A DNA stretch of 64,000 nt, taken from NCBI GenBank assembly GCA_023333565.1, contig JAJKFH010000157.1, positions 434,001 through 498,000 on the forward strand, written 5' to 3'. The translations under genes were made by a program, and so were the position numbers. Shown in pieces: positions 1 through 63,386 of this stretch; within the stretch, counting starts at the first letter, position 1; each line of letters begins with the position of its first letter. This DNA is from Puffinus mauretanicus. Its lineage: Eukaryota > Chordata > Aves > Procellariiformes > Procellariidae. The notes beneath the pieces were generated by a model that saw only the letters and a list, made by a program, of their open reading frames with translations, did not search any database and was not told the DNA's origin.

Positions 1-544
1 GGTCAACCTGCAGATCGTCTAGTGTTAACCAGCCAAATGGCTTCTGGTAAATTTGTATCCCAATGCTTGAATGTCCCAGCACCCATTGCTCTTTTTAACA
101 GTCCATTTTATCATTTTTTTCCTAGAGGCTAATGCATGATAGGGGATGTGATACACCCAGTCAATGCCATGTTCCTTGGCCCAGGTGTCTATGAGGTTGT
201 TTTGGAAATGAGTCCTCTTGTCTAATCCAATTCTTTCTGGGGTGCTGTGCAACCATAAAACTAGGTTTTCAAGGCCCCAGATAGATACTATTTCAGGCAC
301 TGGAATGGGTCACGGGATATTTTTCCAACCATCCAGTAGTCGCTTCCACCATTGTAAGCATGTGGTGCTTACCATGGCAGGTTTTCAGTAGCGTGATATA
401 ATCAATCTGACAGGCTTCCCCATATTGATATTTCAGCCATCGTCCTCTATACCAAAGAGGCTTTAACTGCTTGGTTTGTTTGATTATGGCACATGCTTTC
501 CATTCACGGATAACCTGTGCAACGGTGTAAATGGTCAAGTCCAT
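1..544 (-). pseudogene. ERVL integrase fragment, frameshifted
   Basis: Two out-of-phase minus-strand readings (293-544 and 25-300) cover the end of the zinc-binding domain and the catalytic core. The QIDYITL motif supplies the first core Asp, and LDKRTHF corresponds to the second-Asp region. In the zinc finger the first Cys of the C-x2-C pair is replaced by Trp (WKAC), and the third catalytic motif is scrambled by a frameshift at about 115-125. The family inserts viral DNA into the host genome. This copy is inactive by sequence. Confidence 0.85.
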
Positions 545-917
545 CCTTTGATCACAAACACATCTTTATGTTGCATCTCTTCCTAGATGTCCTGATGTGT
601 CATGGACCCATCAATCTATAAGTAGCTCATCCTTATGTTTCCAGTCCCCATCCACCTAAGCCACTTCAATTCTAGCAGCCTGGACCACCTGCTTGTTGTT
701 TCACCGTTCTTCAGTGGCACGACTAGGGTATATGAGCATCTACGTGACGTATTTTTACAACCAGGTTCTCTACCTGGGCAGTGATATCTTCCCACAATGC
801 AGCAGCCCAGATGGGTTTGCCTCTGCACTGCCAATTGGTCTGCTTCCATTACTGTAGCCAGACCCACAGAACATTTGCTGCCATCCGTGAGTCAGTATAG
901 GGTACAGGCCATTTTTG

Positions 918-1152
918 TCATTCAGCAGTATCTAAAGCCAGCTGGATGGCTTTCACTTCTGCAGACTGACTCAATTCAACTTTTCCTTGAACATTTTCTG
1001 TGACCTGTCCTGTAGGACTCCACAGAGCAGCTTTCCACCTCCGATGTTTTCCCACAATACAACAGGAACCATCTCTAAACAGGGCATATTGCTTTTCATT
1101 TTCTGGTAATTTATTACACAGTGGGGCCTCTTCAGCACAAGCCACCTCCATC
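918..1152 (-). pseudogene. ERVL RNase H fragment
   Basis: The minus-strand reading contains a diverged version of the RNase H start seen in the second provirus (a YALF-x-DGSC motif, with Arg in place of Thr before the first catalytic Asp) and the EVKAIQLALD helix with the second acidic residue. The rest of the domain, towards 550, continues in other frames because of indels and stops. Retroviral RNase H degrades the RNA strand during reverse transcription. This copy cannot encode a complete domain. Sequence at the N-terminal side beyond 1152 is unrelated. Confidence 0.8.
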
Positions 1153-26368: not shown

Positions 26369-26889
26369 TGTCCTGGTTTCGGCTGGGATAGGGTTAAATT
26401 TCTTCCTAGTGCCATGTTTTGGGTTTAGTATGAGGAGAATGTTGATAACACACTAATGTTTTCAGTTGTTGCTAAGTGCCCTCCTAGTCCAAGGACAGCT
26501 CCCGTGCCTACTGACTGAGCTAGGTACACAAGATGGGAGGGAACATAATCAGGACAGCCAGCCCAGCTGGCTAATGGGGTATTCCATACCATGTGACGTC
26601 ATGCTCAGTAGATGAAGGGTAGGCGTGATCCAGGAAGTATCGATCGCTACTTGGTTATCAGTCAGCGCGGGTGGTGAGCAATTGCATTGTGCATCCCTCA
26701 TTTTGTATATTCTATCATTATTTATTATCATTATTTTCCCTTTTCTGTTCTATTAAACTGTCTTTATCTCAACCCACGAGTTTTTCTCACTCTTACCCTT
26801 CCGATTCTCTCCCCGTCCCACTGGGGGGGCGGGGGGAGTGAGTGAGCGGCTGCGTGGTATTTGGCTGCCTGCCAGGTTAAACCACGACA
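26369..26889 (+). mobile_element. Solo ERVL LTR A
   Basis: A 521-bp LTR that starts TGTCCTGGTTTCGGCTGG and ends TTAAACCACGACA. It is flanked by the perfect duplication ATCAC and has no internal retroviral sequence, so it is a solo LTR left by recombination between the two LTRs of a provirus. It is closely similar to LTR B and to the 3' LTR of the provirus at 51915-57991. Orientation is set by TATTAAA (26751-26757), the likely polyadenylation signal, followed by a U5 with a G-run. The copy looks young. Confidence 0.95.
26594..26601 (+). promoter_or_regulatory. Perfect CRE (TGACGTCA) in U3 of LTR A
   Basis: The palindromic CREB/ATF consensus TGACGTCA lies in U3. The same octamer is intact at the equivalent place in LTR B (27664-27671) and in the provirus 3' LTR (52200-52207), and is changed to TGACATCA in the older LTR C. 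Known CRE function is cAMP/ATF-responsive transcription. Use here is inferred. Confidence 0.6.
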
Positions 26890-27378: not shown

Positions 27379-27896
27379 TGTCGTGGTTTAATCTGGCAGG
27401 CAGCCAAATACCACGCAGCCGCTCACTCACTCCCCCCACCCCCAGCGGGACGGGGAGAGAATCGGAAGGGTAAGAGTGAGAAAAACTCGTGGGTTGAGAT
27501 AAAGACAGTTTAATAGAACAGGAAAAAAGGGAAAATAATAATGATAATGATAAAATATACAAAATGAGTGATGCACAATGCAATTGCTCACCACCCGCAC
27601 TGACCGATAACCAAGTAGCGATCGGTACTTCCTGGATCACGCCTACCGTTCATATACTGAGCATGACGTCACATGGTATGGAATACCCCATTAGCCAGCT
27701 GGGCTGGCTGTCCTGATTATGTTCCCTCCCATCTTGTGTCCCTAGCTCAGTCAGTAGGCGCGGGAGCTGTCCTTGGACTAGGAGGGCACTTAGCAACAAC
27801 TGAAAACATCAGTGTGTTATCAACATTCTCCTCATACTAAATCCAAAACACAGCACTAGGAAGAAATTTAACCCTATCCCAGCCAAAACCAGGACA
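27379..27896 (-). mobile_element. Solo ERVL LTR B (inverted relative to A)
   Basis: A 518-bp LTR on the minus strand, reading TGTCGTGGTTTAATCTGG on the plus strand at its left end and ending AGGACA. It is flanked by the perfect duplication CCCCT (27374-27378 and 27897-27901). The polyadenylation signal complement TTTAATA is at 27509-27515 and the CRE at 27664-27671. The separate, different duplications show that A and B were two independent insertions rather than one inverted duplication. Confidence 0.95.
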
Positions 27897-47096: not shown

Positions 47097-47679
47097 TGTC
47101 CTGGTTCCGGTTGGGACAGAGTTAACTTTCTTCCCAGTAGCTTGGGGGGTGTGCTCTGTTTTGGGTTTGGTATGAGAGGAGCATTGATGGCCCATTGTTG
47201 CTTTGATTGTTGCTGGGTGGTGCTTGCACCGGGAGACTTTTGGTTTCTCTTTTCGGCCTCCCATGCCCTGCCAGGTGCAGGGGAACCTGGCGGGGTGGGG
47301 GGGGGGGGCGGGGAGGGGGAGCACAGCCGCGGAGGTTGATCCAGCTGGCCAATGGGGTATTCTATACCATGTGACATCATGCTCAGTATAAAAACCAGGG
47401 GTGTGTGGGGGCTCGCCCCCCAATCGTGACACGCGGTCGGTGGTCAGTGAGCAGTTGCATTGTGCATCGCCTGCTTTGTATATTCTGTTATTGTTGTTGT
47501 TCTCATTGTTACTATTACTGTTCTATTTCGTTTTATTTCAATTATTAAACTGTTTTTATCTCAACACGGGAGTTTTCTTACTTGTGCCCTCCCGATTCTC
47601 TCCCCCATCCCACCGGAGGTGTAGGGGTGAGCAAGCGGCTGCATGGGGTTTATTTGCTGGCTGGGGTTAAACCATGACA
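47097..47679 (+). mobile_element. Solo ERVL LTR C (diverged subfamily)
   Basis: A 583-bp LTR starting TGTCCTGGTTCCGGTTGGG and ending TTAAACCATGACA, flanked by the perfect duplication ATCAG (47092-47096 and 47680-47684). The overall order is the same as in LTRs A and B: a CCAAT box (47349-47353), then a changed CRE (TGACATCA), a TATAAAA box (47387-47393), TATTAAA (47543-47549) and a G-run-containing U5. It differs from them by many substitutions and about 60 bp of extra length, including a long G-run (47297-47322). It is an older or sister subfamily. Confidence 0.95.
47387..47393 (+). promoter_or_regulatory. TATA box of LTR C
   Basis: TATAAAA lies 38 bp downstream of the CCAAT motif and 156 bp upstream of the polyadenylation signal, a normal U3 promoter layout. 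In LTR A the same place reads CAGTAGATGAA, without a good TATA box; in LTR B and the provirus it reads CAGTATATG. Confidence 0.6.
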
Positions 47680-50600: not shown

Positions 50601-51294
50601 TGGTTATGCCTTGGATCTTTCTAGCCTGCGCTCACACTCTGCCCATCAGTCTTACTACCAGCCCTGACATTTCCTGAAGTGTGATGCAGACTTGCATGAG
50701 CAGATAATTATATAAAAGTTAAAATAAGATGGGTTTAGAAGGATTAAATGATTCCGTATGTTATCTCAAAGACCTGTAGTTCAAGACAGAACAGTTCAAA
50801 TAATTCATTGCTTTTTTCTTTGATAAAAATGTAGGTTTAACCTTTTGCGAAGTCTTTTTCTACAGTGTCAGCAGCAACTCCAACCTGTCAGTTCAGCAGT
50901 ACTTTACAACTACTGCAGTTCACTTTGTGTGTGATAGGGAAGAGAGCAGCAAGAATGATACCCAGGCTCTTCCAGGACTGTGAAAAACGTAAGATATGAG
51001 TGACCAGTTATAAGGATAGTTTCAAAATATGGTTGAATGAGAACAGCTTCAAGGCAGAGTAGGTAATAAATAGAAAAATGATTACAAAATGAAAAAGTTC
51101 CTCTGTAATGTGAGAACTCGTTCAGGGGACATGGGCTTAATGACTTCCTCTGTCATAGACTGCCTCAGAGACTTTAGGAAAATCACTTAATCTCTTCTGA
51201 GCCATGATATAGAGATAGTAAATTCCTTTTCTTTTTATTTTTTTTTGCCTCTCTTTTCAATTTAGATTTGAAGAAAAGGTTTTTTCTTACGATG
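47685..51294. other. Unique AT-rich sequence, mostly nothing identified
   Basis: No gene or transposon recognised over 3.6 kb except a short duplicated segment at 49112-49190, listed separately. Reading frames are 119 codons or shorter and without domains. Confidence 0.5.
49112..49190. repeat. 26-bp exact direct repeat with palindromic edge
   Basis: The 26-mer at 49112-49137 (AATAATGG...TTCAATTA) recurs exactly at 49165-49190, a period of 53 bp. The end of the first copy also forms a short palindrome, ATTCAATTA then ATA then ATTGAAT. This looks like a local tandem duplication with a diverged second half. Confidence 0.85.
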
Positions 51295-51909
51295 CACCTG
51301 CATAAGTCTTTTGGTATTGTCTCCCATAACTTCATTATTGACAAAATGAAGTACAGAGTAGATAAATGGACAGCAGGGTGGCTAGCTGAACTACCAGGCT
51401 CAAAAAGTTGAGTGGCACAAAGTCCAACTGGTGGCCAGTCACTAGTAGTGTCCCCACTATGAGTGGAGGCAATATTGGGGCCAATAATGTGTAACATCTT
51501 CATTAATGACGTGGATGATAGGACAGAGCGCACCCTCAGCAAATTTGCAGATGATGCAAAACTGGGAGGAGTGGTTGATGATGTTAAGCGTAGCTTGCAA
51601 GAGTTTAGTAGTGGTAGGGCTACAGTGGTTTCCTCTATGAGAACAGGCCAGGGGCTGCCCTGTGCTGGACACAGACGGTTCCAGTCAGTTTCAGCCAGTT
51701 CCACAACTGACCCGCCACAGGACACGAGTTCATCAGCGAAGTTGGTGGTGCCGCTGTGGAAGCATTTAAGAAAGAGCAGGCAACACTGGAGAGAAAGAGA
51801 GGAGGAGGGAATTAAAGGGAGACAACAGGAGAACACCAAGGTCAGAGGAGCAGGAGATGCTCCATGGTAGAGCAGGCACACACCAGCAGGGACTGCAGCT
51901 TTTGGAGGA

Positions 51910-51914
51910 CCCAT
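51910..51914. repeat. Target-site duplication CCCAT (left) of ERVL provirus
   Basis: CCCAT precedes the element and recurs at 57992-57996, directly after its unusual right end. The host LTR reads continuously across the site once one copy is removed (GGAGGACCCATGCAGAAGC). Confidence 0.95.
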
Positions 51915-52432
51915 TGTCGTGGTTTAACCTGGCAGGCAGCCAAATACCACGCAGCCGCTCACTCACTCCCCCCCCAACCCCAGCGGGATGGGGAGAGAAT
52001 CAGAAGGGTAAGAGTGAGAAAAACTCGTGGGTTGAGATAAAGACAGTTTAATAGAACAGAAAAAGGGAAAATAATAATGATAATGATAAAATATACAAAA
52101 TGAGTGATGCACAATGCAATTGCTCACCACCCGCGCTGACCGATAACCAAGTGGCGATCGGTACTTCCTGGATCACGCCTACCATCCATATACTGAGCAT
52201 GACGTCACATGGTATGGAATACCCCATTAGCCAGCTGGGCTGGCTGTCCTGAATATGTTCCCTCCCATCTTGTGTCCCTAGCTCAGTCAGTAGGCACGGG
52301 AGCTGTCCTTGGACTAGGAGGGCACTTAACAACAACTGAAACCATCAGTGTGTTACCAACATTCTCCTCATACTAAATCCAAAACACAGCACTAGGAAGA
52401 AATTTAACCCTATCCCAGCCGAAACCAGGACA
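51915..52432 (-). mobile_element. 3' LTR of ERVL provirus
   Basis: A 518-bp LTR nearly identical to solo LTRs A and B. On the minus strand it begins TGTCCTGGTTTCGGCTGG at 52432 and ends CACGACA at 51915. The CRE is at 52200-52207 and the polyadenylation signal complement TTTAATA at 52048-52054. It would terminate the viral transcript. There is no paired 5' LTR to compare, so insertion age cannot be read from LTR divergence. Confidence 0.97.
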
Positions 52433-52436
52433 GTAT

Positions 52437-52450
52437 CCACCCCTTATTCC
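52437..52450 (-). promoter_or_regulatory. Polypurine tract (plus-strand primer site)
   Basis: Directly upstream of the 3' LTR the viral strand reads GGAATAAGGGGTGG, followed by ATAC and the LTR. A purine run here is the normal primer for plus-strand DNA synthesis in retroviruses. Confidence 0.7.
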
Positions 52451-52882
52451 ATACCATTTACGTCGTGCTTAGGTCTCACATCTTTTTTTGATACATTTCA
52501 ATTAACCACCACTATCTTTCTTTATATATACACACACATATATATATATATGCACGCACAGATATCATTCCCTTGGTCTATGGACTATCCCTCTAAAATG
52601 TCCACTGAGTTCATTTAGTCCATGACTTTGGGCTCCATCTGTCATAACAGTCTTTCAGGGCCAGAAAGATGGTGTGTGGTGTTGGGCTGTTGCATCCTGA
52701 AGCCAGTTCTCATTTCGGTACTGCTGCGCTCGTCCAGTTCTATCATCGTTGCACTTTGCTCGGTTTCATCGGAGTTAGTTCATTCTTCATTAATCTGGGT
52801 GATTTTCACTGCTATACCATTGATAGCAACCATAGAAATAATGATATACAATATCATGTAACAGTTGACATAAAAATTCAGT
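52451..52882 (-). other. Non-coding region between integrase and 3' LTR; no env
   Basis: About 430 bp with stops in all frames and a TA/CA microsatellite at 52523-52552. No envelope, dUTPase or accessory gene is recognisable, and the length is too short for env. This agrees with the env-less ERVL type. Confidence 0.7.
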
Positions 52883-53290
52883 TCATTGTCTAATTTCACC
52901 CAAAATCAAATCCCCTTGAGGTACACACCGGACCTCCCCATCCTTTCGCATCACCCACCAAGTGTACCCAGGTCCTTGAGCAGAAGCAATCCCATGGATG
53001 GGTTTTCCCTTGCCAGAGGCAGGAGTAACCCAGACTGTTTTTCCCAGCATATTCCTTATGTGCATGACAGGGACTTTATCTCCATCTACAGTACGTAAGA
53101 GTCTTGATTGGGCAGGGCCAGCTCGATTGGCAGATCCCCTGGTGTTGACTAACCAGGTGGCTTTTGCTAAATGTGTATCCCAACGCTTGAATGTCCCACC
53201 ACCCATTGCTCTCAGCGTAGTCTTTAGCAGTCCATTGTATCGTTCGATTTTCCCAAGGCTGGTGCATGGTAGGGGATGTGATATACCCAC
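52883..53290 (-). pseudogene. ERVL integrase C-terminal part (frameshifted)
   Basis: This reading carries the third catalytic motif, KIERYNG (Glu near residue 16), then the rest of the core and a C-terminal DNA-binding-like domain ending GDLILGEIRQ at the pol stop. It lies in a different frame from the preceding integrase part because one base is missing around 53255. Only residues after about 13 belong to the protein; the first ones are out-of-frame text. Integrase joins viral ends to host DNA and leaves the 5-bp duplications seen at all copies here. Confidence 0.9.
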
Positions 53291-54774
53291 TCAATGCCAT
53301 GCTCTTTGGCCCAGGTGTCTATGAGGGTGTTTCAGAAATGAGTCCCCTTGTCTGACTCAATTCTTTCTGGGGTGCCATGTCGCCACAGGACTTGCTTTTC
53401 AAGGCCCAGGATGCTGTTCCGGGCGGTGGCATGGGGCACAGGGTACGTTTCTAGCCATCCGGTGGTTGTTTCCACCATGGTGAGCACATAGCACTTACCG
53501 TGGCGGGTTTGTGGGAGTGTGATATAATCAATCTGCCAGGCCTCCCCATATTTATATTTCAACCATCGTCCTCCATACCAAAGAGGCTTTATTCGCTTGA
53601 CTTGTTTGATTGCAGCGCACGTTTCACATTCATGGATAACCTGTGCAATAGCGTCCATGGTTAAGTCCACGCCTCGATCACGAGCCCATCTATATGTTGC
53701 ATCTCTTCCTTGATGGCCTGACGCGTCATGGGCCCACCGAGCTATAAATAATTCACCCTTATGTTGCCAGTCCAGATCCACCTGTGCCACTTCAATCTTA
53801 GCAGCCTGGTCCACCTGCTGGTTATTTTGATGTTCCTCAGTGGCCCAACTCTTGGGTATGTGAGCATCTACGTGACGTACTTTTACAGTCAGGTTCTCTA
53901 CTCGGGCAGCAATATCTTGCCGCAATGCAGCAGCCCAGATGGGTTTACCTCTGCGCTGCCAGTTGTTCTGCTTCCACTGCTGCAACCACCCCCACAGGGT
54001 ATTTGCCACCATCCATGAGTCAGTATAGAGATAAAGTCCTGGCCATTTTTCTCGTTCGGCAATGTCCAAGGCCAGCTGGATGGCTTTCACCTCTGCAAAC
54101 TGGCTCGATTCACCTTCTCCTTCAGCAGTTTCTGCAACTTGGCGTATAGGACTCCATACAGCAGCTTTCCACCTCCGATGCTTTCCCACAAGGCGACAGG
54201 ACCCATCAGTGAACAGGGCATATTGCTTCTTGTTTTCTGGTAGTTTATTATACAGTGGGGCCTCTTCAGCACGTGTCACCTCCTCCTCTGGGGATATGCC
54301 AAAATCTTTGCCTTCTGGCCAGTTCGTGATCACCTCCAAGATTCCCGGGCGACTGGGGTTTCCTTTTTGGGCCCGTTGTGTGATCAGTGCGACCCACTTA
54401 CTCCACGTAGCATCGGTTACATGATGTGTAGAGGGGACCCTCCCTTTGAACATCCAGCCCAGCACCGGCAATCGGGGTGCCAGGAGGAGCTGTGCTTCAG
54501 TACCAACCACTTCCGAAGCAGCTCGAATCCCTTCATATGCTGCCAATGTCTCCTTCTCAGTTGGAGTGTAGCGAGCCTCGGATCCTCTGTATCCCTGACT
54601 CCAGAACCCTAAGGGTCGACCTCGAGTCTCCTCTGGTGCTTTCTGCCAGAGGCTCCAGGTAGGGCCATTCTCCCCGGCTGCGGTGTAGAGCACATTCTTT
54701 ACATCTTGTCCTGCCCGGACTGGCCCAAGGGCTACTGCATGAACTATCTCCTGTTTAATTTGTTCAAAGGCTTG
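53291..54774 (-). pseudogene. ERVL RT connection, RNase H and integrase N-terminal/core part
   Basis: The frame 53332-54693 (453 codons) covers the RT connection (YTPTEKETLAAYEGI near residue 42), RNase H with Asp163 (FTDGS), Glu201 and Asp225 (YTDSW) and Asp295. The integrase zinc finger has His322, His327, Cys356 and Cys359, and the core has Asp389 (QIDY) and Asp448 (SDKGTHF). It ends in a TGA at 53332, where relatives have an Arg codon, a C-to-T change. Upstream it is continuous in frame with protease-RT through a TGA at 54775. All visible catalytic residues in this segment are intact; the damage is the two stops and the later frameshift. Confidence 0.93.
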
Positions 54775-56063
54775 TCATTGCTCAGGGCCCCGTTTGAAGT
54801 CATTCTTCTTCCTGGTCACGTGATAGAGAGGGCTTACAATCTGACTGTAATTTGGAATATGCATTCTCCAAAAACCCACAATGCCTAAGAAAGCTTGTGT
54901 TTCCTTTTTGCTAGTTGGTGGGGACATGGCTGTTATTTTGTTGATCACATCTGTTGGGATCTGACGACGTCCATCTTGCCATTTTATTCCTAAAAACTGG
55001 ATCTCCTGTGCAGGTCCCTTGACCTTACTTTGTTTTATGGCAAAACCAGATTTCAGAAGGATTTGAACTATTTTCTTCCCTTTCTCAAAAACTTCTTCTG
55101 CTGTGTTGCCCCACACGATGATGTCATCAATGTATTGCAGGTGTTCTGGAGCCTCACCCTGTTCCAGTGCGGTGTGGATCAGTCCATGGCAAATAGTAGG
55201 GCTGTGTTTCCACCCCTGGGGCAGTCGGTTCCAGGTGTACTGGACACCCCTCCAAGTGAAAGCAAACTGTGGCCTGTACTCCGCCGCCAAAGGGATTGAG
55301 AAGAAGGCATTAGCAATGTCAATTGTGGCGTACCACTTGGCTGCCTTTGACTCCAGTTCGTATTGAAGTTCTAGCATGTCCGGCACGGCAGCACTCAGTG
55401 GCGGCGTGACTTCGTTCAGGCCACGATAGTCTGCTATTAGTCTCCACTCTCCATTGGACTTTTGCACTGGCCATATGGGACTGTTAAAGGGTGAGCGAGT
55501 CTTGCTGATCACTCCTTGGCTCTCCAGTTGACGAATCAGCTCATGGATGGGAATCAGAGAGTCTCGGTTGGTGCGGTATTGCCGCCGGTGCACTGTTGTG
55601 GTAGCGATTGGTACCTGCTGTTCTTCAACCCTCAGCAACCCCACAACAGAAGGGTCCTCCGAGAGACCGGGCAAGGTGGACAGCTGTTTAACTTCCTCTG
55701 TCTCCAGGGTAGCTATACCAAAAGCCCACCGGTACCCTTTTGGGTCCTTAAAATACCCTCTCCTGAGGTAGTCTATGCCAAGGATGCACGGAGCCTCTGG
55801 GCCAGTCACAATGGGGTGCTTCTGCCACTCATTCCCGGTTAGGCTCACTTCAGCCTCCAATACAGTTAAATCTTGGGATCCCCCTGTCACTCCAGAAATG
55901 CAAATGGGTTCTGCCCCTTTATAGTTTGATGGCATCAGGGTACACTGTGCACCGGTGTCTATGAGAGCCTTATACTCCTGTGGATCTGATGTGCCAGGCC
56001 ATCGAATCCACACAGTCCAGTAAACCCGGTTGTCCCTTTCCTCCACCTGGAGGCAGGGCCCCT
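54775..56063 (-). pseudogene. ERVL protease and reverse transcriptase
   Basis: The 423-codon reading has no ATG start (a GTG at 56044-56046 opens the listed frame), as expected for a pol made by frameshift or readthrough from gag. Retropepsin is marked by LIDTGAQ (catalytic Asp30) and the ILGIDYL flap-side motif (residues 88-94). RT follows, with RLIADYRGLN, the first Asp in TIDIANAFF (Asp243), RLPQGW, and the catalytic YIDD at 305-308. It ends in a TGA at 54775-54777 where the following sequence continues in the same frame; relatives would have Trp. Gag and pol lie in different frames, with gag ending at 56064. Confidence 0.95.
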
Positions 56064-56318
56064 TTAGTTCTGGTCATAGTATCCATCTCTCACTTCTTGC
56101 AAACGTGAGTTAAGAATTTCTTCATCGCAATTACAATCCAAAGTAAGATCAGCCCTTCTACTCTGTCTGGGGAACTGTTCACTGGAAACTGGACCGTCGT
56201 GAGACAGGTTTTTCCTAAAAACTGGAGCAGCATTTTTCCTGGGAGAACCCCCTTGTGTGATTGTTTTTCCTTGCAACTCACGTACACATGCCTCTAAGAT
56301 GAAGGTAGGTTTTCCATC
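56064..56318 (-). pseudogene. ERVL gag C-terminal part after internal stop
   Basis: This segment is in the same frame as the upstream gag reading and separated from it only by a TGA at 56319-56321. It encodes a basic, glycine-rich tail (GKTITQGGSPRKNAAP) and ends YYDQN before the stop at 56064. No Cys-His zinc knuckle is visible, as in foamy-related Gag proteins, where basic motifs can bind nucleic acid instead. Confidence 0.85.
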
Positions 56319-57925
56319 TCACTGCCTCATGTCCTCTCCGTGGTCACACAGGTAAAACCACAGGGTGCCCCGTGGTGTGTACTTTCGATATCCTCTCTCT
56401 TGAGGAGAAAAACGCTGACTCCTAATGGCTGAGGTACTGGTCCGTACAGGTGGAGAATAGGACATACCCTCTTCGAGTTGTTGGACCTTCCGGGACAGCT
56501 TCTCCACAGCCGAGACAAGGGAGGAGGAGATAGTTTCTTCGAAATCCTGAAGTCTGCTAACTAAGACATCCACCATTGGTGCTTCTTCCTCTGCCCAGGA
56601 CAGTACTGCCAACGAACTGGCATACGATGCTGGTGCGCTCCGTACCAACTTCCGCCACATGGGTCGCGTGCACTGGACGTCATCTGGATCTTTGGCCATT
56701 TGTTTGTTGTCCAGGTCACTATAAACCACCTCTAGCACGCCTAGTTCTCTCAGGTACTGGATACCTCTCTCCATAGTGGTCCATTTGCCTAGGCGATATA
56801 TAACATCTTCCTTGAAGGGATACCTTTCCTTCACGCCTGACAGCAGTCGCCTCCAGAGGCTGAGGGCCTGTGTCCCTTTTCCAATTGCTTTGTCAATGCC
56901 CCCTTCCCTAGCAAGGGATCCCAGCTGTTTGGCTTCCTTCCCCTCTAATTCCAGGCTACTGGCCCCATTATCCCAGCATCGGAGCAGCCAGGTAACAATA
57001 TGCTCGCCTGGACGACGGCTGAAATCTTTCCGCATATCTCGCAACTTATTCAGGGATAAGGATTGGGTGGTTTCCGTCTCGTTTATGAGTTCTTCCTCTT
57101 CCCCCTCCCCTCCTCGTGATGGCCCTGTTTTTCCATCATCCTTTTCTAAACGACCTGACTTCCGCTTCAAAGATTTCTTCTTCTGTACAAGGGCGACGGA
57201 TACCAGCGACGGTTGGTCCTCTGGTTCAGCTGTAGTAGCCGTAGCGAGGGTTTGGGTAGCTGCAGTGCCTGTCGCGGGGGTTGGAGTACTTGTAGTGACT
57301 GTTGTCGGGGTTTGAGTGGCTGCAGTGCCTGTTGCACTGGTTGGAGTAACTGCAGTGACTGTTGGCGGAGTTTGAGTAGCTGCAGTGCCTGTTGCGGGGG
57401 TTGAAGTAACTGTAGTGACTGTTGCCGGGGTCTGAGTAGCCATAGTGGTTGTCGTGGGGGTTGAAGTAGCCACAGTGCCTGTTGCAGGAGTTTGAGTAGC
57501 CACAGTGGTTGTCATGCGGGTTGAAGTAGCTACAATGGCTACAGTGCCTGTCGTGGGGGTTTGAGTAGTCACTGTGTCTGCTGCCGGGGTTGATCTCTGG
57601 ACAGTATTCCTGAATAGTTGTTTAACTCTAAACAAGGCCTGAACCACATTCAGAAGACATAGCAATATGATCATGCTTGTTTGAACATCCCAAGGATATT
57701 CAAAATTCTCAGGGAATATTGTGGATGTCTTCATGAAGAGGATAGAAGAAAAAGGAGTTTCTGAAGATATGGAAGGGAAGGTGAACAAGTAGGAGAAAGT
57801 TACGCATCCTGTCTCCCCCCTAAATTCATCCTCTGAGGTGAAGACGTAAAAAGTGTAATTATTAATAGTTTCCAAAAGGTAGCTCCCGAAGAACAGGAAT
57901 GATGGCAGTGCTGAGTACAGGCTCA
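56319..57925 (-). pseudogene. ERVL gag with hydrophobic segment and Thr/Pro repeats
   Basis: The open frame extends 56319-57992 (557 codons), but its first 22 or so codons are translated from the inverted U5 piece, so the true gag start is further in (Met87 or Met107 are options). Seen in order are a hydrophobic stretch (residues 106-120, TSMIILLCLLNVVQALF), a Thr/Pro-rich repeat region (about 141-252), a basic segment (KKKSLKRKSGR, 271-281), an acidic patch and a helical capsid-like region (LRDMRKDFSRRPGEHIVTWL onward). A coiled-coil-like SAVEKLSRKVQQLEEG stretch closes it. It stops at a TGA (56319-56321), where the downstream frame continues. Gag forms the particle shell. Confidence 0.88.
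57237..57572 (-). repeat. 60-bp tandem repeats encoding Thr/Pro-rich Gag segment
   Basis: About five to six imperfect units of 60 bp, each encoding a 20-residue block of the type ATQTPATGTVATSTPTTTT. The units are clean in frame (no stops, length a multiple of three). Strong Thr/Pro/Ala bias with no Cys or aromatics suggests a flexible, possibly O-glycosylatable or spacer segment. Confidence 0.9.
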
Positions 57926-57991
57926 GGGGGTGGGGGGGAGTGAGTGAGCGGCTGCATGGTATTTGACTACCTGCCAGGTTAAACCACGACA
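57926..57991 (+). mobile_element. Inverted U5 fragment at 5' end of ERVL provirus
   Basis: Sixty-six bases at the right edge match the last 66 bases of the LTR but in plus orientation, opposite to the provirus. They end GGTTAAACCACGACA exactly at the target duplication. Compared with the left end of the same element (51915-51980) there are about three differences, all transitions (for example CAGCC versus TAGTC on the same strand). The match ends in the G-run of U5 at about 57925. The two element ends are therefore terminal inverted repeats of about 66 bp. Confidence 0.93.
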
Positions 57992-58353
57992 CCCATGCAG
58001 AAGCAAATTTTCCCTAAAGGGAAAACGGTACATGGATGATCCCCTGCCAGAGCAGTTATACCCTTGAAGGGATTGCAGCCTGTAAAGGACCCACACCAGA
58101 GCACAGGAGTAGAGTGAGAGGGAAGGAGCTGCAGAGAGAAACGGCTACCACCCCATACAATACCAGTTGTCTCACTGAAGGAACTGAGTCTAAACTGCAT
58201 CAAGAACAAGGTGGGAGAAGAGTCTGGAGAAAAGTTGAGCCCTGGAAAGGTGGAGGAGAGGTGTTTTCCCTAAGTGTGTGCTTGGGGTTTTTTTTGGTTT
58301 TGTTTCCCAATATCCTAATCAGTACTCGGATATCTATATTAAATGAAAATAAA

Positions 58354-63069: not shown

Positions 63070-63386
63070 TTTTCTCCCTCATCCTGCTGCCAGGGGGACA
63101 GGGAACAGTGAGTGAGTAGCTGTGTGGGTCCTTGGATGTGAGCCGGGCCAATCCACCACATTGATGCACCAGGTGGTTGTGCTTAATTCAGAGGGACCTT
63201 GGCAGGTCAGAGAAGCAGGTAGAGAGGAACCTCTTGGAGTTCAACAATGGGAAACACCAAGTCCTGCACTTAGAGAGGACTAAACACATGCACAAGCACA
63301 GGCTGGGGGCTGACTGGCTGGAAAGCATCTTTGCAGAAAAGGCCCTGGGGGTCCTGGTAGACAGCATGTTGAACATTTCCCATTAG

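Follow-up and report, generated by a model that had tools for sequence, protein, structure and literature searches.

How does a provirus come to carry the U5 terminus of its LTR on both sides? In an ordinary two-LTR provirus, a 5′ LTR, a primer-binding site and a leader precede gag, whereas in the element described here only 66 bp of inverted U5 are joined to gag. The element is a class III (ERVL-like) provirus that lies on the minus strand, at 51915-57991, of a 64,000-nucleotide stretch of Puffinus mauretanicus DNA, the whole of which is referred to below as the window. An earlier note on this DNA had described the arrangement and ascribed it to integrase acting on two U5 ends. We confirm the observation itself: the U5 terminus is present on both sides of one bird provirus. 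It is probable, in our judgement, that this defective class III (ERVL-like) provirus derives from a linear cDNA that, before it integrated, already had a U5 attachment end at each terminus. All evidence for such a cDNA comes from one copy at one locus, and we therefore set out the structure of that copy before weighing how it might have formed.

Termini, coding content and class of the element

The left end of the element is a complete 3′ LTR of 518 bp (51915-52432, minus strand), delimited by LTR comparison, with its U5 terminus at the outer edge, 51915, and its U3 terminus at 52432. By eye, a purine-rich tract, presumed to be the polypurine tract, adjoins the U3 terminus (52433-52450, minus strand). 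The right end is the same U5 terminus in inverted orientation (57926-57991, plus strand), without U3, R or a primer-binding site. Alignment to the element LTR placed the first 67 LTR bases, inverted, at 57991-57927 (92.5% identity, E = 2e-22); followed by eye, the match reaches 57926, giving 66 bp, and no further LTR match was found at the right end at E 1e-3. Both edges of the element are bordered by CCCAT (51910-51914 and 57992-57996). In these respects the description in the earlier note was accurate, as it was for three solo LTRs in the window, which have 5-bp duplications of their own (ATCAC, CCCCT and ATCAG). Two of the solo LTRs are close to the element LTR, differing from it at 14 of 516 (27379-27896) and 32 of 518 (26369-26889) ungapped columns, and the third (47097-47679) is more distant. 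The two close copies are inverted relative to each other, with their U5 ends face to face and about 490 bp between them, and each sits within its own 5-bp duplication.

Compared with the LTR of the element itself and with both close solo LTRs, the inverted U5 shows three differences, all of them C-to-T in the strong-stop sense. The window's two closest LTR copies carry C at all three of these places, and the third T is also found in the distant solo LTR. The length of the C-run differs as well between the inverted U5 and the LTR copies; the right copy has C there where the left LTR has an A of its own, in a stretch where the alignment is ambiguous. Editing was considered as the source of the three C-to-T differences, for which the sample is too small. 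At 63131-63160, a U5-like match with 10 mismatches in 30 bases was judged to be due to chance. As inverted repeats the two LTR termini match imperfectly, U3 and U5 having TGTC-x-TGGTTT in common, that is, 10 of the first 11 bases.

The coding frames all lie on the minus strand. A reverse transcriptase open frame (54775-56073; Pfam RVT_1, 2.1e-27) and an open frame for RNase H and the beginning of the integrase core (53332-54774; Pfam RNase_H, 4.7e-19, and rve, 4.7e-10) adjoin each other in the same frame, separated by a single stop. A gag-like frame without its start spans 56319-57920, with homology to relatives beginning at codon 30-32, directly inside the junction with the inverted U5, and contains a 30/60-bp tandem repeat array (57228-57538). 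In mammalian ERVL a dUTPase follows the integrase, and the ERVL primer-binding site is that of tRNA-Leu. Here, the stretch after integrase has one frame of 135 amino acids, the sole frame scanned there, in which no Pfam family was found at E 0.001.

The best PDB matches of the reverse transcriptase are chains named Pr125Pol (E = 1.6e-42), which we take to be those of a foamy virus, followed by 4hkq (RT/RNase H p80; 4.8e-38), presumably gammaretroviral. Among solved structures the reverse transcriptase is thus closest to foamy viruses, as judged by best PDB matches rather than by a tree. A protein search with the gag-like frame found 383 related proteins. The best 120 of these comprise 98 with bird names, including storks, cranes and hawks, 20 without a name and 2 filed under Klebsiella, and one of the 120 is named ‘Friend virus susceptibility protein 1-like’; the gag of Fv1 is linked to ERVL gag. 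A 5-bp target-site duplication has been used as a mark of ERVL in songbirds, in a study of cordon-bleus (PMC6523648), and both CCCAT and the duplications at the three solo LTRs have this length. With the 5-bp duplication added to these matches, the class III/ERVL-like assignment is well supported.

Target site and inner junction

The host flanks (left, 51183-51914; right, 57997-58269) carry the same minus-strand frame, which runs on from one into the other, and joining them with a single CCCAT gives an open frame of 334 residues on the minus strand. When 204 residues of this frame were used in a protein search, two of 110 candidates matched, P0121 (E = 1e-35) and P0122 (E = 7e-33), both of which span the insertion site uninterrupted (ICFC|MGPP, with 0 residues gained or lost there) and so read through the empty site at which CCCAT is now duplicated. 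P0121 has three residues fewer slightly upstream of the site, and both proteins are gapped further downstream. At the protein level, P0121 and P0122 resemble copies of the target sequence without the interruption. Since two proteins cross the joined flanks, the flanks were once contiguous, and CCCAT is a true target-site duplication from one insertion. A chance 5-bp match at the edges is expected about once in 900 cases, and together with the contiguous flanks this led us to reject a chance duplication. A LINE-mediated processed copy was likewise rejected in view of the exact LTR edge, the 5-bp duplication and the lack of a poly-A tract, by eye, at either edge. The host sequence around the element appears somewhat repetitive, since both flanks have a 59-bp stretch in common at 71% identity (51856-51913 and 58035-58093); the copy at 58035-58093 does not adjoin the element. 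Pfam scans of both host flanks found no family.

The inner junction coincides with the end of the U5 C/G-run. The open frame running through it (58013-56319), in which the junction at 57926 falls at codon 30, was compared with the 120 listed gag relatives. Eleven of the 120 start aligning at codon 30-32, and ten of these extend 43-65 residues further upstream, the remaining one (P0035) by only 6; P0108 gave a weak alignment from codon 20, at 31%. The eleven are not independent of one another, four being from Morphnus guianensis, two from Buteo buteo, one from Theristicus and four without a name. Their upstream residues are mostly alike, those of P0043 least so. Because these residues are similar among the relatives, we infer that they are translated gag, and a search with the 29 U5-derived residues of the element against the 120 listed relatives gave no match. 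Since relatives extend upstream of the junction, the element lacks its 5′ LTR, primer-binding site and leader and also the start of the gag frame.

These comparisons do not bear out two details of the earlier proposal, in which strong-stop DNA switched template at the G-run and primed synthesis in the gag leader. The sequence adjoining the junction lies within the gag reading frame, as the upstream residues of 10 of the 11 relatives indicate, rather than in a leader. As for a G-run in the acceptor, proline is encoded immediately before the aligned stretch in none of the 11, and with the best of them only about 58% identical to the element, the absence of a C-run there is not decisive. Five nucleotides at the junction (57921-57925) fit neither U5 nor conserved gag residues with certainty when the relatives are aligned, and no microhomology is demonstrable at the inner junction.

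Possible origins of the second U5 end

Concerted action of integrase on two U5 ends is argued for by the exact U5 edge on both sides together with the true 5-bp duplication. We therefore regard integrase pairing of two U5 ends as likely, and this part of the earlier proposal stands, in that it fits a single insertion with two exact U5 termini and a genuine duplication of 5 bp. Attachment of the second U5 most likely took place during reverse transcription. In this scenario, minus-strand synthesis would have halted inside gag, at a nick in the RNA or through drop-off, and the 3′ end of the minus strand would have changed template to the other strand, aided by little homology or none. Alternatively, it could have been a strong-stop DNA, ended prematurely by stalling at the U5 G-run, whose 3′ end made this change. 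Copying of strong-stop DNA, or of the minus strand's own 5′ end, up to the terminus would then have created an exact inverted duplex U5 end without a flap, after which integrase would have paired the two U5 ends and joined both to the target 5 bp apart, in concert. Strong-stop DNA is the presumable source of the second U5, and its copy may have stalled at the U5 C/G-run; priming from the G-run in the gag leader is unsupported.

Published work bears on both halves of this scenario. In HIV experiments, if integrase does not handle one viral end, host enzymes join the second, in most cases leaving long duplications or deletions instead of 5 bp (PMC5041404), and among 15 XMRV proviruses the one with a U3 end lacking CA had a 273-bp duplication (PMC2857682). 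When supplied in vitro with ends mimicking U5, the integrases of foamy virus, MMTV and Rev-A prefer concerted integration, Rev-A yielding 26 concerted products at 5 bp against <1 at any other length (PMC3790719). HIV-1 integrase with U5 ends gave half-site products only, unless a cofactor was added (PMC3790719). The resemblance to the bird element lies in two U5 ends being joined to a target with a fixed duplication; the difference is that those experiments used oligonucleotide ends and purified enzyme, and here it is a natural provirus. Strong-stop DNA can also move to gag sites without homology in vitro, with complete strong-stop DNA in 7 amplicons and DNA that ended early in U5/R in 7. These transfers were made onto RNA and gave deletions, not inverted ends, and the Gag-U3 PCR of the same study yielded no such strong-stop transfer (PMC10986323). 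That the transfers were onto RNA with none inverted, and that HIV-1 integrase gave half-site products, count against a cDNA with two U5 ends.

The earlier note had also held that a later event would not be expected to keep the exact terminus and the duplication. This was too strong: exact ends are by themselves compatible with later rearrangement, the LTR termini being imperfect inverted repeats, and the TGTC-x-TGGTTT common to U3 and U5 would let a later template switch keep both. An ordinary two-LTR provirus might thus have undergone a jump from gag to an inverted U5, in its 3′ LTR or in another copy, followed by copying of 66 bp and a jump back to the U3 terminus of the 5′ LTR, with the edge and the duplication preserved. 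We think this rather unlikely. The 10 shared bases out of 11 would favour it, and LTR inversion with template switching has been proposed for the human element HERV-K124 (PMC3625200). It requires two switches, however, the second within the last 4 bases (GACA), and in its divergence from the close solo LTRs the right U5 equals or exceeds the LTR of the element itself (3 of 54 bases against 9 of 489; Fisher p = 0.11, a weak difference). Given these proportions, there is a weak indication that the right U5 does not look younger than the integration.

It is also conceivable, if improbable, that a cDNA broken in gag was end-joined by host enzymes to a short U5 duplex from a second cDNA and that integrase then used both ends. 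Additional viral sequence, in either orientation, can indeed become attached to aberrant HIV ends (PMC5041404), and the little or no homology visible at the junction, with up to 5 unassigned bases, would suit such joining. This route would, however, call for a very short U5 duplex ending just at the C/G-run, a breakpoint for which a stalled strong-stop DNA seems the simpler source.

Much less is left of the idea that the element is a fusion, by deletion, of the gag of one provirus to the U5 of a neighbour in opposite orientation, or a chimeric assembly, with CCCAT matching by chance. Such neighbours do exist, as the two inverted solo LTRs about 490 bp apart in this window illustrate. A fusion would have left non-contiguous flanks, though, and apart from the low odds of a chance match, two proteins cross the joined flanks with no residue change at the site; the contiguous flanks therefore bring both the fusion and the chimera to the verge of dismissal, and we consider them very improbable. 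Scarcely credible, finally, is an element family that regularly carries U5 inverted repeats and is mobilised by integrase in trans, since U5-derived sequence stands at the junction in 0 of the 11 aligning relatives.

Further searches were made for related copies. A search with the U5-gag frame returned 108 candidates, none at E 1, and had little power, as it missed known gag relatives too. A 16-base U5 pattern had a single match in viral contigs (L001), judged to be chance with only 17 LTR bases agreeing, and pattern searches of these contigs for pol and gag relatives gave 15 and 25 stretches, of which 0 were confirmed. In genome contigs, a gag pattern search gave 49 stretches with 0 confirmed, and a 23-base U5 pattern found nothing. 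These searches of viral and genome contigs thus yielded no sibling DNA.

Precedents and implications

For part of this structure there are human precedents, namely HERV-K elements that contain LTR pieces in inverted orientation. HERV-K124, which we place at 4q32.1 by matching coordinates in PMC3228705, resembles the bird element in pairing a complete LTR with a short, inverted LTR piece (78 in its table) at the opposite end. Its authors suggest that LTR inversion was combined with template switching, refer to Hughes and Coffin 2002 for the inversion mechanism, and describe an element with a whole 5′ LTR, inverted pieces both internally and at the 3′ end, and two internal segments (PMC3625200). 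In the bird element, by contrast, it is the 3′ LTR that is whole, the viral 5′ end consists of one inverted U5, and the target duplication has been tested. To go by its title, the work of Hughes and Coffin reportedly concerns an ERV-related element that resembles a DNA transposon.

Unequal LTRs formed before integration are also known from HIV-1, where 26 of 88 proviruses had asymmetric LTRs, ascribed to misalignment in reverse transcription (PMC9278108). Those cases differ in that they are deletions in one LTR, the 3′ LTR in 24 of 26, and a U5 end at both sides is reported for none of them in the available portion of that study (PMC9278108). Our literature search, covering best matches by title and abstract opening and leaving most subscription journals outside, found no earlier U5/U5 endogenous provirus.

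If the reading of two U5 ends before integration is right, the locus would offer a natural case, from a germ-line infection, of integrase pairing two U5 ends, and would imply that failed products of reverse transcription can still integrate cleanly. Tools that search for LTR pairs would probably label such copies truncated, and a targeted search could count U5/U5 copies in bird genomes. A wider idea, which we entertain with considerable doubt, is that cDNAs failing short of the RNA 5′ end are capped by strong-stop DNA and integrated via two U5 ends as a recurrent class, an unrecognised salvage route. Were it true, proviruses with U5 inverted repeats would escape ordinary LTR-pair searches.

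Two minor observations concern sequences related to the element. The left edge of the window (10-1149) holds a fragment that shares about 80% identity with the pol region of the element; its further extent is cut off or diverged. The two gag relatives filed under Klebsiella pneumoniae (P0066 and P0100), on contigs of about 2 kb, resemble bird DNA contamination of bacterial records.
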